From the NCBI RefSeq assembly GCF_002216775.1, contig NZ_CP022315.1, positions 3,162,001 to 3,226,000 of the forward strand: DNA of 64,000 bases. Reading direction: 5' to 3'. The notes under the pieces are model-generated. The model searched no databases and had not been told where the DNA came from. It worked only from the letters and a program-made list of their open reading frames with translations. Position 1 is the stretch's first letter. Each line of letters opens with the position of its first letter. Shown piece after piece: positions 5,955 to 27,124 of the stretch. The DNA comes from Virgibacillus phasianinus (GTDB taxonomy: Bacteria; Bacillota; Bacilli; Bacillales; Amphibacillaceae). Position numbers and translations under genes: made by a program.

Positions 5955-7018
5955 GATTGAACCACCCCGTTTTCCACTTTAGTTTTACTTCTTAAAAATG
6001 CGACAATATCTTTATTTGTTAATACTCCAACTAACTTCTGATCTTTTAATACAGGTAAAATTGCTTGTTCATCCGGTTGAATGGTTTCAGTTGCTTCAAT
6101 TAGGGGCATGTCATTTTTAATTGTTTGAATGTCTACATTCTGGCCGTTTTTCACCGCGCCAATATACATGCCATGCTCATCTTTTATGGCGAACACCCCT
6201 GATTGATCATACGTGCCTTGTTGATAATCAGACAATGATATTACATGCGACTGTGATTGATCAGCAATGACGTCCACCGCCGTTTGCCAGGGAGATTTTC
6301 TTTCCCCAATAAAATCCCGCACAAACTGTGTTTTCGGATTCAAAATTAATTGTTGTGGTGTGTCAACCTGAATGACCTGTCCTTCCTTCATTAAACAAAC
6401 TTTATCGCCAATCGCCATCGCTTCATCCATATCGTGTGTTACAAAGACAATGGTTTTCTTTATTTCTTTCTGCAAAATTCGAATATCCTTCTGCAATTGT
6501 TCCCTGCTAATTGGGTCCAGCGCACTAAAGGGCTCGTCCATTAGAATAATATCCGGATCGGCAGCCAACGCCCGGATAACTCCTATTCGCTGCTGTTGCC
6601 CGCCAGACAGTTCTCTTGGCATTCGTTTTTGATAAGTAGACGGGTCTAGGCCAACCATTTCCAATAACTCCATTCCCCTGTCGCGTATCTTTTTCCTTTT
6701 CCATTTTTTCATTTCAGGAACAACTGCTATATTTTCTGCGATTGTCATGTGTGGAAAAAGTGCGATTTCCTGTAATACATATCCGATATTCCAGCGCAAT
6801 TCATGGATATTGTATTCATTAATATCTTTATCATCTATGTAGATGGATCCTGATGTGGGTTCAATCAGGCGATTAATCATTTTCATCGTTGTTGTTTTCC
6901 CACAGCCACTTGGGCCAATTAATGTCATCAGCTCCCCGTCTTCCACTTTTAATGAAAAGTTTTTTAATGCTTCAGTACCGTCTGGATACACCTTTTGAAT
7001 ATTGCTAAACTCAATCAT
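5951..7018 (-). CDS. opuFA: Osmolyte ABC transporter ATP-binding subunit with CBS domains (OpuFA-like)
   Basis: ATPase of the compatible-solute importer, 355 aa. Walker A GPSGCGKTTTMK, signature ELSGGQQQR and Walker B IILMDEPFSALDP are intact. The C-terminal ~100 residues form a CBS pair (ending near LVGVLTNKDIVAFLRS), the module that senses ionic strength in OpuA-type systems. Start ATG at 7018 follows AAAGGACGAGACGA with 8-base spacing. It is the first gene of a two-gene operon with the permease/binding-protein hybrid and is divergent from plsY. Its family is that of OpuCA/OpuBA/OpuFA; the hybrid partner argues for OpuF. Confidence 0.92.
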   Translation of the reverse strand: MIEFSNIQKVYPDGTEALKNFSLKVEDGELMTLIGPSGCGKTTTMKMINRLIEPTSGSIYIDDKDINEYNIHELRWNIGYVLQEIALFPHMTIAENIAVVPEMKKWKRKKIRDRGMELLEMVGLDPSTYQKRMPRELSGGQQQRIGVIRALAADPDIILMDEPFSALDPISREQLQKDIRILQKEIKKTIVFVTHDMDEAMAIGDKVCLMKEGQVIQVDTPQQLILNPKTQFVRDFIGERKSPWQTAVDVIADQSQSHVISLSDYQQGTYDQSGVFAIKDEHGMYIGAVKNGQNVDIQTIKNDMPLIEATETIQPDEQAILPVLKDQKLVGVLTNKDIVAFLRSKTKVENGVVQS

Positions 7019-18677: not shown

Positions 18678-19136
18678 TCAAAGAGTAGAATACAATATTT
18701 GCTCATTCAAATGATCCTTCAACTTTGTTACTGGAGAAATCCAACCATAGTTATTTAATTTATTATCCAATACAAATAAGGATGGATGGAATAATTGTAA
18801 AATAGGAAATAACAACATCTCTGCATCCTGAAGCATATTGCAACGAAAGTTTATCTGCTTTTCACTAATATGTAAAGAGATATAATGCTTATCTTGTACT
18901 ATTTCTATTGAATTATTACCATCTTTCACCATAGCATTTTTATTATACAATGATTTAATTTTAGTATTCAACTCTTTTGTAGAAAAAACGCAGGTAATTT
19001 CGTTAAACTGATCGTTTATCAACTGATTTTTATTATTTTCGTGGTATTGTTTTAAAAAGCGATAGAGAATATCACTTCTATAATAATAACGTCGTGCAAA
19101 TTCAATTTTTATTGGATAAATAGAATACGTATTCAA
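18678..19136 (-). CDS. sirA: Sporulation inhibitor of replication SirA
   Basis: SirA (YneE) is made under Spo0A control and binds DnaA domain I to stop new rounds of replication at sporulation. The 152-aa protein keeps the family start YSIYPIKIEFARRYYYR and the C-terminal YGWISPVTK. Conservation is limited to these parts, as usual for SirA. The GTG at 19145 overlaps its own Shine-Dalgarno AAAAGGAG; the TTG at 19136, 8 bases after GGAG, gives a product starting MNTYSIYPIK that aligns with known SirA, and is chosen. Position between yneF and tkt matches B. subtilis. Confidence 0.85.
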   Translation of the reverse strand: MNTYSIYPIKIEFARRYYYRSDILYRFLKQYHENNKNQLINDQFNEITCVFSTKELNTKIKSLYNKNAMVKDGNNSIEIVQDKHYISLHISEKQINFRCNMLQDAEMLLFPILQLFHPSLFVLDNKLNNYGWISPVTKLKDHLNEQILYSTL

Positions 19137-19216
19137 CAATATCACTCCTTTTATTATTATTATACGTATTCTATTTCAAAAAAATGTCACAATGAGTTGC
19201 ACATTACCACTAGTTT

Positions 19217-19263: not shown

Positions 19264-21267
19264 TTATTTGATTAGTTTTTCCACTTGTTTTACAACATTT
19301 TCAACCGTGAAACCATATTCTTCCATAACCTTATCTCCGTTTGCTGATGCTCCAAATGTATCAATGCCAAGCACAGTTCCCTGGTCACCTACATAGCGTT
19401 CCCAGCCAAATGGCGATGCCATTTCAATTGCTAGACGACTTTTAACCTGTGGAGGAATTACTTCGTTACGATAAGCTGCCTCCTGTTCATTAAAACGATC
19501 CCATGATGGCATGCTGACAACATTTACATGAATGTCTTTTTCCAGTAGTTCTTTTTGTGCTCTGACAGCAAGTTGAACCTCAGATCCTGTTGCAAGGATT
19601 AACGCATCAGGTGTTTCTTTTTCACTTTTACTTATTACATAAGCGCCTTTTTTGACACCTTCATAGGCGTTTTCTTTTGTACCTTCAAGTGTCGGTAATC
19701 CTTGTCTTGTTAATACTAATGCAGTCGGCTTGTTCGTTGATTCTAAGGCCAAACGCCATGCAGCCTGTGTCTCATTTCCGTCAGCCGGACGAATTAGTGA
19801 TAATCCAGGCATTGCACGGAATGCAGGTAAATGCTCGATTGGTTCATGTGTCGGACCGTCTTCTCCAACTGCAATAGAATCGTGTGTAAATACATAAGTT
19901 ACCGGATTATTCATTATCGCCGACAACCGGACAGCGGGACGTAAATAATCACTGAAAACAAAGAACGTACCTGCATATACTTTTAATCCACCGTGAAGAG
20001 CCATACCATTTAGGGCCGCAGCCATTGCAAATTCACGGACACCAAACCAGATATTTTTCCCTGCATAATTATCGAGAGAAAAATCAGTTTGATTTTTTAC
20101 AGTAGTTTTGTTTGAACCTGCTAAATCAGCACTGCCTCCGAATAAATTAGGGACAGCATTAGAGACCGCGTTAAGAACTTCTCCGGATGAAGCACGGGTT
20201 GCCAATTTATCTTTGCCCGGTTCATACAAAGGTAATTCTTCGTTCCAATCAAGTGGTAGTTCTCCGTTTATTGCTTGTTCCAATTTCTCTGCATCTTCAG
20301 GATACTTTTCTTTATAATTATCAAACAATTGGTTCCAATTATCTTCCACATCCTGGCCGTTTTTACCGATTTTCTCGTTGAAATCCGCATAAACTTCTTC
20401 AGGAACATGGAAGTCATCATGTGTCCACTTATAGGATTCCTTTGTAAGTTTCACCTCATCCACACCGAGTGGAGCCCCGTGCGACGCAGAAGAAGCGGAT
20501 TTATTAGGTGAACCAAAACCAATGACTGTTTTAACCTCTATCAATGTTGGCTGACTCGTGTTTTCTTTCGCTTCTTTGATTGCATTACGTAATGCCTTCA
20601 CATCATTACCGTCCTCAACACGAATTACCTGCCATCCGTATGCTTTAAAACGAAGCTCGGTATCATCGGAAAAGGAACGGTCCAAGTCACCGTCTAAAGA
20701 GATATCATTTGAATCATATAACGCAATTAATTTTCCTAAGCCTAGATGCCCGGCAAGTGAAGCTGTCTCATGGGAGATACCCTCCATCAGATCGCCATCA
20801 CTTATTAATGCATACGTATGGTGGTCCACAATCGATAAATCTTCTTTGTTAAAAGTAGCTCCAAGATGTGCTTCAGCCATTGCCATCCCCACTGCCATTG
20901 CAATACCTTGCCCTAATGGACCAGTTGTTGCCTCAACACCATCAGTATGATGAACCTCAGGATGTCCTGGCGTTTTGGAATCCCATTGTCTGAAATTCTT
21001 CAGGTCTTCAATTGTTACATCATATCCAGCTAAATGCAGTAATCCGTATAGCAGCATTGATCCATGTCCTGCTGATAAAACAAAACGATCCCGATTAAAC
21101 CATTTTGAATTTTTAGGATTCTGATTCATAAAGTCTGTCCATAGTGTGTAAGCCATTGGAGCAGCCCCCATTGGTAAACCTGGATGGCCTGAATTAGCAT
21201 TTTCAATAGCATCAATAGCCAGGGTGCGAATGGTATTTATTGATAGTTCTTCTACATTTGATGACAC
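19264..21267 (-). CDS. tkt: Transketolase
   Basis: Transketolase moves two-carbon ketol units between sugar phosphates in the pentose phosphate pathway, with thiamine diphosphate. Motifs seen: [19 protein letters not shown] near the N-terminus, the ThDP-binding [10 protein letters not shown]-type segment (read here as [12 protein letters not shown]), and [12 protein letters not shown] with the Glu/His region of the pyrimidine domain. GTG at 21267 ([15 protein letters not shown]) is 7 bases after GGGG and gives 667 aa, the B. subtilis length; a longer in-frame start at 21309 adds 14 unconserved residues. Downstream of ynzC. Confidence 0.96.
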
Positions 21268-21371
21268 GTAAATTCCCCTTCCTTGTCGAAACTTGTATAA
21301 CCTATTCAATTCTATAATGAAAACTAGCTCGGAACAAGTATCATTTTAGCTTATTTAATCTATTAATTATT

Positions 21372-21608
21372 TCACTGATCCTTTTTATTATTCTTTTGCA
21401 GGTCTTTTACCTTTTGCGGGGTTACATCATTTCCTTCTGGATCCTTCACTGTCATTGTTTTAAATTGATTTTTAAAAGATGAGCGAACATTGCTTAGGTA
21501 CTCTTCACGTAATCCTTTTTGTTCTTTTTTCTCTTCTACAGTTAACCCTTCATTTTTCGCTTTTTTTGAAAGTGCATTAATACGTTCCAATTTTTCTTTT
21601 GAAATCAC
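21372..21608 (-). CDS. ynzC: DUF896 protein YnzC
   Basis: A 78-aa charged protein of the UPF0291/DUF896 family: KEKLERINALSKKAKNEGLT, EKKEQKGLREEYL and FKNQFKTMTVKDPEGNDVTP. In B. subtilis ynzC is the third gene of the SOS-induced yneA-yneB-ynzC operon; here it lies 82 bases after yneB with the same orientation. A helical hairpin fold is known for the family, function is not. Confidence 0.92.
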   Translation of the reverse strand: MISKEKLERINALSKKAKNEGLTVEEKKEQKGLREEYLSNVRSSFKNQFKTMTVKDPEGNDVTPQKVKDLQKNNKKDQ

Positions 21609-21690: not shown

Positions 21691-22344
<654 letters not shown>

Positions 22345-22367: not shown

Positions 22368-22463
22368 TTAAGCACTGGTGACTAAAGAAAAATATAAAAA
22401 TCCTAAAGTTAATGCAAATGCCACCAAATAAAATGCATCCGTCTTGCTTATTTTATCAAACAT
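22368..22463 (-). CDS. 31-aa single-span membrane peptide in the yneA position
   Basis: Reads MFDKISKTDAFYLVAFALTL and ends GFLYFSLVTSA, 31 residues: a short charged head and one membrane span (residues ~9-28). ATG at 22463 follows GAAAGGG with 10-base spacing. It is the first gene downstream of a LexA-controlled promoter and precedes yneB and ynzC, the exact place of yneA in B. subtilis. YneA there is a division inhibitor with one span and a LysM domain; this peptide has the span but no LysM, and no LysM remnant follows. An SOS membrane peptide acting on the divisome is inferred from place and shape. It could instead be a decayed yneA. Confidence 0.6.
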   Translation of the reverse strand: MFDKISKTDAFYLVAFALTLGFLYFSLVTSA

Positions 22464-22514
22464 TAAAAATCAACCCTTTCCCGTTTAACAGAACTATTGT
22501 TCGCCTCTGTTAAT

Positions 22515-22543
22515 AGAGTACATCGAACGTATGGTCCTGTCAA
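22515..22543 (-). promoter_or_regulatory. SOS promoter of the small membrane ORF, yneB and ynzC
   Basis: On the minus strand TTGACA (22538-22543), 17-base spacer, TACTCT (22515-22520). The spacer holds GGACC-ATAC-GTTCG (22524-22537), a LexA half-conserved box with a perfect GTTCG half. A perfect LexA box lies just upstream at 22553-22566. Confidence 0.7.
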
Positions 22544-22552
22544 CTGTTTTTT

Positions 22553-22566
22553 CGAACGAACGTTTG
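22553..22566. promoter_or_regulatory. LexA box
   Basis: CGAAC-GAAC-GTTTG matches the Bacillus consensus CGAAC-N4-GTTYG exactly. It overlaps the -35 of the lexA promoter and is close upstream of the divergent promoter, so LexA bound here would control both sides. Confidence 0.9.
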
Positions 22567-22629: not shown

Positions 22630-23253
22630 ATGACAAAGTTGTCCAAACGGCAAGAAACCATTCTTGAATATATTAAAGATGAAGTAAATAAAAAAGGGTA
22701 TCCACCATCAGTAAGAGAAATTGCAGAAGCAGTGGGTCTAGCATCTAGTTCAACCGTTCATGGGCATTTATCAAGGCTTGAAAGCAAAGGGTATATAAGA
22801 AGAGATCCCACTAAGCCGCGCGCGATAGAGGTACTTGATCTATCATTAGATAGCAACGTTCCACGAGAGGCAGTGCGTTATGCCCCTGTCATCGGTAAGG
22901 TTACTGCAGGAATACCAATCACAGCAGTTGAAAACATTGAAGAATTTATTCCATTACCCGGTTCGTCATCATCGCCGGACGATAATATTTTTGTCCTGAT
23001 TATTCAAGGAGAAAGTATGATTGAAGCTGGCATATTAGACGGAGACATGGTAATTGTAAAGCAGCAAAACGTTGCCCAAAATGGCGAAATTGTTGTAGCT
23101 ATGACTGAAGAAAATGAAGCGACAGTGAAACGTTTTTTTAAGGAAAAAGATCATATCCGATTGCAACCAGAGAATGCTACAATGGAACCTTTAATCTATC
23201 AAAACGTTACCATATTAGGTAAAGTGATAGGGTTGTATCGTAATATTCATTAA
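22630..23253 (+). CDS. lexA: LexA SOS repressor
   Basis: LexA represses SOS genes and cuts itself when RecA filaments form. The 207-aa protein has the winged helix ([24 protein letters not shown], residues ~22-45), the Ala-Gly cleavage site in GKVTAGIPI, the catalytic Ser in [10 protein letters not shown] and Lys in GDMVIVKQQ. Start ATG at 22630 follows GAGGTGTTAGATAG. It is divergent from the yneB side and autoregulated through the box at 22553-22566. Targets in this window by box content: parEC, recA, lexA and the small membrane ORF operon. Confidence 0.98.
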
Positions 23254-25330: not shown

Positions 25331-26677
25331 TTATATCGCAGTGTGTACTTTTAAGTAGTAGTCTAAGGCAAAGGGAATACCCCTTTGCTTTAGACGTTTG
25401 TTAGATAAAGCTTTATGAACTACCTTGGATAGCCCAATGAAACGATAACCCCTTCGACAGTAAGTTAAGCCTTTTGCTTCCTCTTTGGGAATGCCAAGCT
25501 GGACAAGGGATTTTATTCTCTTCCTGCTGTTCTTCCATTGCTTCCAAATGATTATTCGCAGTCTGGAGCGAAGTTTTGCGTCGATTGCTCCGAGTGCTTT
25601 CTTCATGTTGGCTATCTTGAAGTAGTTGACCCAGCCAAATATGACCTGTTTTAACTTGACGATCCTGTCATCTAATGAGATGCTCCAATTTCTTTTTGTT
25701 AACTTTCGCAATTTCCTTTGAAATTTCTGAATCGAACTTTCATGCGGTCTTGGTTGAAACTTTCCCTTATTAAAATCAAAATAGTAACCGAATCCTAGAA
25801 ATTTTGTTTCACTAGGGCGGGAGATTTTACTCTTTTCCGCATTGACCTTTAATCCCAATTTCTTCTCGATAAATTTTGTAATGGAAGTGAGCACTCTATT
25901 CGCTGCTTTTTCGCTTTTGACGAAAATGAGACTATCATCTGCGTATCTGACGAAACGCAGACCTCTTGTTTCCAGTTCCTTATCCATCTCGTTCAACATA
26001 ATATTGCTTAGAAGTGGACTAAGGTTGCCTCCTTGTGGTGTTCCAACTAACGTATCTTTATATTTACCGTGGACTATCACGCCACTTACGAGATATTTCC
26101 GTATAAGGGAAATTATATCCCCCTCTTTTATCGTATGGGAGATGATTCTCATCAATTTGTCGTGATGCACCGTATCAAAGAATCGTTCTAGGTCAATATC
26201 TACTAACCACTCATATCCGTCATTCATATATTCCAGCGCTTGGATGATTGCCATCTCACAGCTTCTTCCCGGTCGGAAACCGTAGCTATATTCGCTGAAT
26301 TGTTTTTCGAATATGGGGCTCAGTTTTTGACTGATTGCTTGCTGTACTACTCTGTCAACAACCGTTGGGATACCTAGTTTGCGCATTTTCCCATTTTCTT
26401 TTGGAATCTCTACACGCAATGCTGGCGCTGGTTGGTATTTCCTTTTTCGGATTTGAGAACGAAGTTCATCCTTATGTTCTTTAAGATATCCCTTCAATTC
26501 TTCTATACTCACTCCGTCTACTCCACTTGCGCCTTTATTGCGATACACGCGCTTATAGGCTTGATTCATATTTTGATTACTTAAGATTTCTTCTAAAAGC
26601 TCCACACTCGTTTCTTCCTTTCCTTTCACGTAACGGTAAGACACTTCGTTTTTGAGTATCCTCTGAGATACGCTCAT
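25331..26677 (-). CDS. ltrA: Group II intron reverse transcriptase/maturase
   Basis: A 448-aa intron-encoded protein that helps splicing and copies the intron into DNA. The reverse transcriptase core is complete: NKGASGVDGVSIEELK, YSYGFRPGRSCEMAI, DLERFFDTVHHD, GTPQGGNLSPLLSNIML and the catalytic FVRYADDSLIF. A maturase domain X (GWVNYFKIANMKKAL region) follows and the protein ends without an HNH endonuclease, as in class C. ATG at 26677 (MSVSQRILK) has GAGG 5 bases upstream; a start at 26719 has none. Apparently intact, so the intron may be mobile. Confidence 0.95.
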   Translation of the reverse strand: MSVSQRILKNEVSYRYVKGKEETSVELLEEILSNQNMNQAYKRVYRNKGASGVDGVSIEELKGYLKEHKDELRSQIRKRKYQPAPALRVEIPKENGKMRKLGIPTVVDRVVQQAISQKLSPIFEKQFSEYSYGFRPGRSCEMAIIQALEYMNDGYEWLVDIDLERFFDTVHHDKLMRIISHTIKEGDIISLIRKYLVSGVIVHGKYKDTLVGTPQGGNLSPLLSNIMLNEMDKELETRGLRFVRYADDSLIFVKSEKAANRVLTSITKFIEKKLGLKVNAEKSKISRPSETKFLGFGYYFDFNKGKFQPRPHESSIQKFQRKLRKLTKRNWSISLDDRIVKLKQVIFGWVNYFKIANMKKALGAIDAKLRSRLRIIIWKQWKNSRKRIKSLVQLGIPKEEAKGLTYCRRGYRFIGLSKVVHKALSNKRLKQRGIPFALDYYLKVHTAI

Positions 26678-27124
26678 ACTTTCCTCATTAACACATTCTG
26701 AAGTATATCTACCGTGCATTCATGGCGTAGAAACACTATAAATTGTTCAGCCCTTCGTGATATCTTCACTACTATGGCTTCGGCTGACTTCTCACGATAA
26801 ACCTTTTCCGACCAGCCTTCTTTATAGGGGACTCCTCAGCTGTCCGTGAGACCTCCCAGGGTAAGACAACTATCTTTCCTCTTTTACTCGCCTAATTTAC
26901 TTTATAGGATTACGCACACCTTTTGGACTTTGACTTGTATTGGAGCCTTATCCACCTATAAAGCCTTGGTATCAGATTTCTGTTCGTCGAGCCAAGATTT
27001 TGATACACGCTTCCTTCAGCCATTACCTCACGATAATTGCCTTGCGTTTCTCTAGTAGTTAGTCGGTGTGTACCCCCACAGTGGACTTTCACCACCTAGA
27101 TAGTCGCCATGACTGGCGCACAAT

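Follow-up and report, generated by a model that had tools for sequence, protein, structure and literature searches.

A LexA-linked membrane peptide of 31 residues in the place of yneA in Virgibacillus phasianinus and its relatives: a candidate minimal YneA

Results

The window, a stretch of 64,000 nucleotides of Virgibacillus phasianinus DNA, contains next to lexA an open reading frame (ORF) for a 31-aa peptide, MFDKISKTDAFYLVAFALTLGFLYFSLVTSA, that appears to be a YneA cut down to a single-span peptide of about 31 residues in a whole group of salt-loving relatives of Bacillus. Our main reading, to which we give a probability of around 0.6, is that it is a minimal YneA, an SOS-induced, one-helix peptide that has lost the LysM domain and that would bind FtsW-A and hold off septal wall synthesis. 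The gene, its regulation and its conservation are well supported; its target and the inhibition of division, as well as its topology, its induction and its binding to FtsW, we infer from sequence comparisons.

A conserved ORF occupies the yneA locus

The genes around the ORF (Table 1), lexA, yneB, ynzC, tkt and sirA, follow what we take to be the gene order of B. subtilis, with the ORF in the place of yneA. Judging from the genes, their profiles and 106 intergenic regions (see below), the peptide holds the yneA slot, between lexA and yneB and behind a divergent promoter with LexA boxes. No NCBIfam or Pfam family matches it at E 1, and a PHROGs scan with five of the peptides retrieved nothing below E 0.04. 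We also found no description of it in the literature on YneA, SosA, LexA-linked small membrane proteins, SidA, and prophages and FtsW (mostly papers free of subscription), in agreement with the initial annotation, which had suggested that it might be undescribed. Elsewhere in the window, a 462-aa ORF (25331-26719, minus strand) is recognisable by its sequence as similar to group II intron reverse transcriptases and lies near glnA- and glnR-like genes.

Table 1. Features of the lexA-sirA region, with positions in the window
Feature	Position	Strand	Basis
sirA	18678..19145	-	profile PF10747
transketolase (tkt)	19264..21309	-	recognised by sequence and position
ynzC, DUF896	21372..21608	-	profile PF05979
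yneB, resolvase-like	21691..22344	-	profile NF049883, 343 bits (cut-off 175)
31-aa single-span membrane peptide (probable TM-only YneA type)	22368..22463, stop included	-	ATG start at 22463; homologues; dN/dS
Shine-Dalgarno-like GAAAGGG ahead of the peptide ATG	22474..22480	-	sequence
LexA box 3, between the -10 and the peptide start	22490..22503	+	consensus match
Sigma-A-like candidate promoter: -35 TTGACA (22543-22538), 17-nt spacer, weak -10 TACTCT (22520-22515)	22515..22543	-	by eye
LexA box 2, within the spacer of the peptide promoter	22524..22537	+	consensus match
LexA box 1 (CGAACGAACGTTTG), exact consensus, 63 nt upstream of the lexA start	22553..22566	+	consensus match; conserved
lexA, divergent from the peptide gene	22630..23253	+	profile TIGR00498, 251 bits

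LexA was found in all of 61 related genomes, and a scan of named genomes added the best 80 loci. A peptide of 30-31 aa, as counted from the scored start, is present upstream of lexA in 105 out of 142 loci, with 89 distinct sequences; because L074 repeats L011 and L091 and some genomes are included twice among these loci, the 89 distinct sequences, or the 102 distinct coding sequences used below, are the better count. The best score with the peptide profile was at least 46 in the 105 loci and at most 20 in the other scorable ones, and the best of 2000 shuffles reached -0.7. L017, where the contig ends, was scored as a miss in this count, although the peptide is present on a different contig of its genome (G032). 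The start codon is ATG in 102 of the 105 peptides and TTG in two, and in L114 the ATG is located a few codons further upstream; a Shine-Dalgarno-like sequence, under a lenient pattern, precedes the peptide in 105 of the 106 intergenic regions.

Carriers belong to Virgibacillus, Oceanobacillus, Lentibacillus, Ornithinibacillus, Aquibacillus, Sediminibacillus, Halobacillus, Pontibacillus, Terribacillus, Gracilibacillus, Paraliobacillus, Salinibacillus, Thalassobacillus and Salirhabdus. Among the best 80 named loci the peptide is present in 74; it is absent at lexA from Virgibacillus sp. MSJ-26, two Amphibacillus and Candidatus Avamphibacillus, and in its stead there is a LysM-less protein of 78 aa in Alkalicoccobacillus and a YneA with LysM in Metabacillus. 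The tiny ORF noticed initially behind the lexA-divergent promoter is therefore real and kept next to lexA in related genera, and it is a trait of several related families, not one peculiar to this genome.

The dN/dS was 0.15 over 518 pairs from the 102 distinct coding sequences, which leave out peptides of 27, 32 and 35 aa (L185, L167 and L170, the last one alignable only with a gap). Likewise, pN/pS was 0.20, with pN lower than pS in all 43 disjoint pairs, and the other two reading frames did not show this pattern of purifying selection. In view of this selection and of the profile scores as compared with the shuffles, we reject both a chance ORF and a decay product. Residues D9, F16 and Y24 are invariant in the 102 sequences, and K7, Y12 and L20 nearly so; the 3-4-4-4 spacing of D9, Y12, F16, L20 and Y24 puts them on one helix face, and conservation tracks the 100-degree period of a helix, to a modest degree (p=0.038).

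It could be argued that the peptide is a relic of yneA, a transmembrane stub that is still translated and has no function. It does sit in the yneA slot, its gene is frameshifted in one genome (G342, locus L321, where the gene is recognisable and the LexA boxes are intact), and the transmembrane part of YneA is inactive by itself in B. subtilis, according to PMC13396833. Nevertheless, the strength of purifying selection argues strongly against a relic, as do the length of 30-31 aa and the three invariant residues across genera, and the existence of TM-only copies on prophages and other elements (see below), and we consider this reading extremely improbable. In another genome, G306 (L313), the peptide is gone and the stretch between lexA and yneB is rearranged.

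LexA boxes in the lexA-peptide intergenic region

The sequence CGAACNNNNGTTYG, which we assumed as the LexA-box consensus for scoring, has a single exact match, box 1, and boxes 3 and 2 are sites with one and two mismatches. One of these three LexA-box-like sites overlaps the candidate promoter of the peptide. Loose matches to the box are not enriched over the whole window (78 versus 70.9 expected); despite this, we take the boxes to be real because they are conserved across relatives. In 106 distinct lexA-peptide intergenic regions there is a mean of 2.85 boxes per region, versus 0.02 in mononucleotide shuffles, with at least one in every region, one at the place of box 1 in 105 of them, and clusters at around 62, 90 and 125 nt from the lexA start. 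The fixed places of the boxes across all these regions bear out the SOS-type promoter postulated in the initial annotation. LexA-type control of the peptide gene is well supported by these predicted sites, and LexA boxes are present in its promoter, as expected for the SOS regulon of Bacillales.

Relationship of the peptide to YneA

The peptide shares with YneA of B. subtilis and most Bacillales (NF010723) the locus, the divergence from lexA, the LexA boxes, an N-terminal single span and the adjacent yneB, and some YneA members have a helix pattern in common with it. Unlike YneA, it has no LysM domain, an extracellular part of about two residues at most and no match to the family model. Indeed, it does not reach the cut-off of 60 of NF010723, with which four LysM YneAs score 89-95 bits, and the absence of LysM is evident from its 31 aa, the lack of a Pfam match and the lack of room before yneB. 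Judged by the family model, then, the peptide falls outside YneA, but it probably is a YneA by descent.

A YneA profile did not find a LysM-type YneA in any of 37 family genomes (that of the window and 36 others), with a best E of 5e-8. Three of them had no match at all, the best match in the genome of the window (6.6e-5) is inside a 354-aa frame, and those of the weakest family genomes are listed without position. With the same profile, 15 genomes from other families all had matches with E no higher than 1.4e-16; 11 of these genomes had contributed sequences to the profile. On this search we reject a YneA hidden elsewhere in the genome, a full copy of which the initial annotation had named as evidence against its proposal. 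With the peptide profile, the best match in those 15 genomes had E 0.03, and a weak one in G052 (E 0.11) fell on the YneA helix itself.

The helix of the peptide was similar at p<0.05 to 13 of 46 helices from LysM-bearing YneAs (mean z 1.20, within-region shuffles), which are related to each other and include one helix twice, whereas among 18 control spans, taken from other N-termini and for the most part signal peptides, one reached this level (mean z 0.18). Similarity to L190, the YneA nearest to the B. subtilis type, was not significant (p=0.34); its K-E-F-hydrophobic-F spacing is that of the critical YneA residues in B. subtilis, as given in PMC13396833. At the sequence level, the similarity of the helix to YneA appears real but is modest.

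As the similarity is modest and 33 of the 46 YneAs do not reach significance, a new and unrelated gene might have displaced yneA, the likeness of the helices being convergent. This appears unlikely to us, because a [ST]-[KGS]-x-[DE]-helix pattern is found in some LysM-bearing YneAs (L066, L070, L191, L203 and L204) and because forms lacking LysM occupy this position in a number of other families. In this clade we saw no protein that combines a helix like that of the peptide with an intact LysM domain. The peptide is most likely the transmembrane helix of YneA after loss of the LysM domain. Of the initial idea that it replaces YneA, the occupation of the slot holds, and an unrelated substitute gives way to what is probably the trimmed transmembrane part of YneA itself.

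In sixty further loci from 34 families we counted by eye 31 full-length YneAs (29 of them marked by the LysM pattern and two recognised as such); 17 loci had a peptide of 27-35 aa, seven had a protein of 34-94 aa that lacks LysM, and five had no clear candidate. In 23 loci from other families there were 15 LysM YneAs, three forms lacking LysM and a single peptide, and the remaining four loci were empty. The families with peptides are f1, f2, f7, f36 and f32, and those with the longer LysM-less forms are f3, f6, f21, f35 and f42. In a LexA tree, the 37 f1 genomes and those sampled from f2 and f7 are on one side of a supported branch, so that one loss of LysM suffices for them. The proteins of 34-94 aa that lack LysM and fill the yneA position in other families of Bacillales (L057, L063, L067, L149, L175-L177, L188, L196, L205 and L206) are apparently parallel shortenings of YneA.

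Joint absence of the peptide and FtsW-A

If the peptide acts on FtsW, its fate should follow that of FtsW. We located the FtsW gene of the window's genome next to what we recognised as a pyruvate carboxylase gene. In a tree of 71 SEDS proteins the canonical FtsW-A was separate both from SpoVE and from a divergent clade, FtsW-B. Peptide and FtsW-A were scored in 138 family genomes, of which G346 (80% complete, with no FtsW and no LexA match) was dropped. In the remaining 137, both were present in 114 and both absent in 15, seven lacked only the peptide and one lacked only FtsW-A. That is, the peptide is absent in 15 of the 16 genomes without FtsW-A, and FtsW-A is absent in 1 of the 115 genomes with the peptide, for which location beside lexA was checked for part of the matches. 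The association yields a Fisher value of 6.7e-14, uncorrected for kinship, of 1e-7 with genera as units and of 1e-4 by our own count of events. A weak match in G025 (E 6.7e-4, within a 361-aa frame) was counted as absence of the peptide; the FtsW classes of G280, G284, G292, G293, G306, G307, G313 and G314 derive from identity and E-value and not from the tree, G322 (55%) was classed as FtsW-A by the gap in E-values, and the FtsW of G017 is not in the SEDS tree.

The peptide thus tends to be absent where FtsW-A, probably the wall enzyme that it blocks, has been replaced, an observation that we consider new. For example, in genus g29 both are present in G029 and G323 and neither in G306. The seven out of 22 peptide-less genomes that keep FtsW-A are the frameshifted G342 and six from genus g26 that have no yneB next to lexA either; G024 has the peptide and only FtsW-B. 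Among the 15 co-loss genomes, yneB is kept beside lexA in 11, missing in three of one genus and not judgeable in one; 11 of 14 judgeable genomes having kept it, removal of the peptide was usually selective. Unlike FtsW-A, PBP2B is not replaced in the family genomes, since it was found in all 138 at E 1e-100 or better (64% identity in G306, 60% in G284 and 54% in G035); its lowest identity, 50-53%, is that of the main peptide-less clade, which is thus divergent in general.

A proline in TM7 of FtsW, presumably P206 of B. subtilis by position only, is absent from all 14 FtsW-B rows, but 11 of the 29 FtsW-A rows from genomes with the peptide lack it as well, and it therefore does not simply mark sensitivity. 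Outside the family, G046 (no YneA, FtsW-B) fits the co-loss and G057 (no YneA, very divergent FtsW) does so loosely; against it, G043 and G051 have FtsW-A and no inhibitor. FtsW-B is found alongside YneA or longer LysM-less forms in G038, G041 and G060. On a LexA tree of 64 rows there are 7 changes in the peptide and 6 in FtsW-A, with only 2 independent pairs on supported branches; these are too few for significance and the co-loss is not proven phylogenetically, so it constitutes a strong lead and not a proof. The pairing, including that within a genus of G029 and G323 versus G306, predicts a sensitive FtsW-A and a resistant FtsW-B.

Regarding FtsW-B itself, it adjoins a second recognised SEDS-like gene (387-390 aa) in 7 of the 8 loci L272, L273, L276 and L278-L282, and several family genomes seem to carry FtsW-B besides FtsW-A, and some FtsW-B alone.

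The co-loss fits any ligand of FtsW, including a helix that docks on it without inhibiting, as a modulator, a localisation tag or a shield against division inhibitors of prophages or others. The transmembrane helix of YneA binds FtsW without inhibiting it (PMC13396833), and the homologues on prophages, which have the motif in part, could be competitors. However, SOS control and the yneA slot suggest inhibition, and these genomes are otherwise devoid of a known lexA-linked division brake, so we find mere docking doubtful. TisB is an SOS-induced membrane-active peptide. A peptide of the TisB/DinQ kind, lowering membrane potential with no action on the divisome, would share the small size, the one span and the SOS control; given the yneA slot, the conserved face, the similarity to some YneA helices and a loss linked to FtsW-A and not to PBP2B, we regard it as quite improbable here.

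Proposed mode of action and comparison with known inhibitors

In the preferred reading, a minimal YneA, inactivation of LexA by RecA would allow the peptide to be made from the divergent promoter. It would insert in the membrane as a single helix, K4 and K7 suggesting a cytoplasmic N-terminus, and could bind FtsW-A, the canonical divisome glycosyltransferase, possibly at TM7, with contact through the conserved helix face. Septal wall synthesis would then be held off until repair is complete. Having no LysM domain, the peptide would have to inhibit by means of its helix, in the manner of SidA of Caulobacter (29 aa).

PMC13396833 (JBC 2026) reports that in B. subtilis the YneA helix binds FtsW TM7 and localises to the divisome, and that this helix alone does not inhibit, LysM binding being essential. 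A conserved natural TM-only form is surprising in this light, and an inhibitor of this type would need a gained property. ChiZ of Mycobacterium and DivS of Corynebacterium are both larger than the peptide, and ChiZ differs by carrying LysM. They resemble it as SOS-controlled single-span division inhibitors near lexA (PMC6851548). SosA of Staphylococcus (77 aa) is likewise a LexA-linked single-span inhibitor without LysM, and it needs a conserved extracellular C-terminus, proposed as the target of CtpA (PMC6851548); the peptide has no such segment, ending about two residues past its span. SidA is comparable in size, single span and SOS control, and has FtsW as its target (PMC4211646), although it belongs to another phylum and another locus, a resemblance of kind and not of sequence. 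In AlphaFold3 models of low confidence, SidA lies across FtsW TM7 on the opposite side (PMC13396833).

If our reading is correct, the peptide would show how little protein is enough to stop FtsW, which is a candidate drug target. It would also call into question the view that the transmembrane helix of YneA only localises the protein and that the work is done by the LysM domain. Around 100 distinct natural sequences would also define the contact face with FtsW.

Copies of the peptide in mobile elements

We found 15 further copies of the peptide, in 13 genomes, away from lexA. TM-only homologues appear in the early regions of prophages or integrase-bearing elements (L218-L223, L226-L231 and L233-L238), several of them just after a small gene (MDFEKYF... 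and similar). Profiles confirmed the integrase in each of six elements, and in one more they confirmed an anti-repressor; the others were judged by eye. In 13 aligned mobile copies the equivalents of F16 and L20 are invariant and that of D9 is D in 10; all mobile copies but one lack a LexA-like site with up to two mismatches in the stretch scanned, and one prophage copy (L233, ~5990-6076) is broken by an in-frame stop. Further matches away from lexA are G298:C21 and G294:C8, and there are second matches in G015, G257 and G254. A tblastn search of three peptides against phage and plasmid records retrieved nothing at E 10; since the low-complexity filter may mask a short hydrophobic query, this speaks only weakly for their absence there.

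The TM-only prophage forms suggest that the short peptide has a use of its own. Tentatively, and at somewhat less than even odds, we propose that a clade of Bacillaceae has reduced YneA to a one-helix inhibitor of FtsW, some 30 residues long, which would block septal wall synthesis with no extracellular domain at all, that replacement of FtsW-A by FtsW-B is an escape that would make the peptide dispensable, and that prophages and mobile elements of this clade may carry the same minimal inhibitor to arrest division of the host. Over 249 genomes of the order, a profile of the mobile copies, which is not very sensitive and misses the known peptide of G004, had matches only in families f1, f2, f7, f36 and f32, plus one 287-aa frame in f19.
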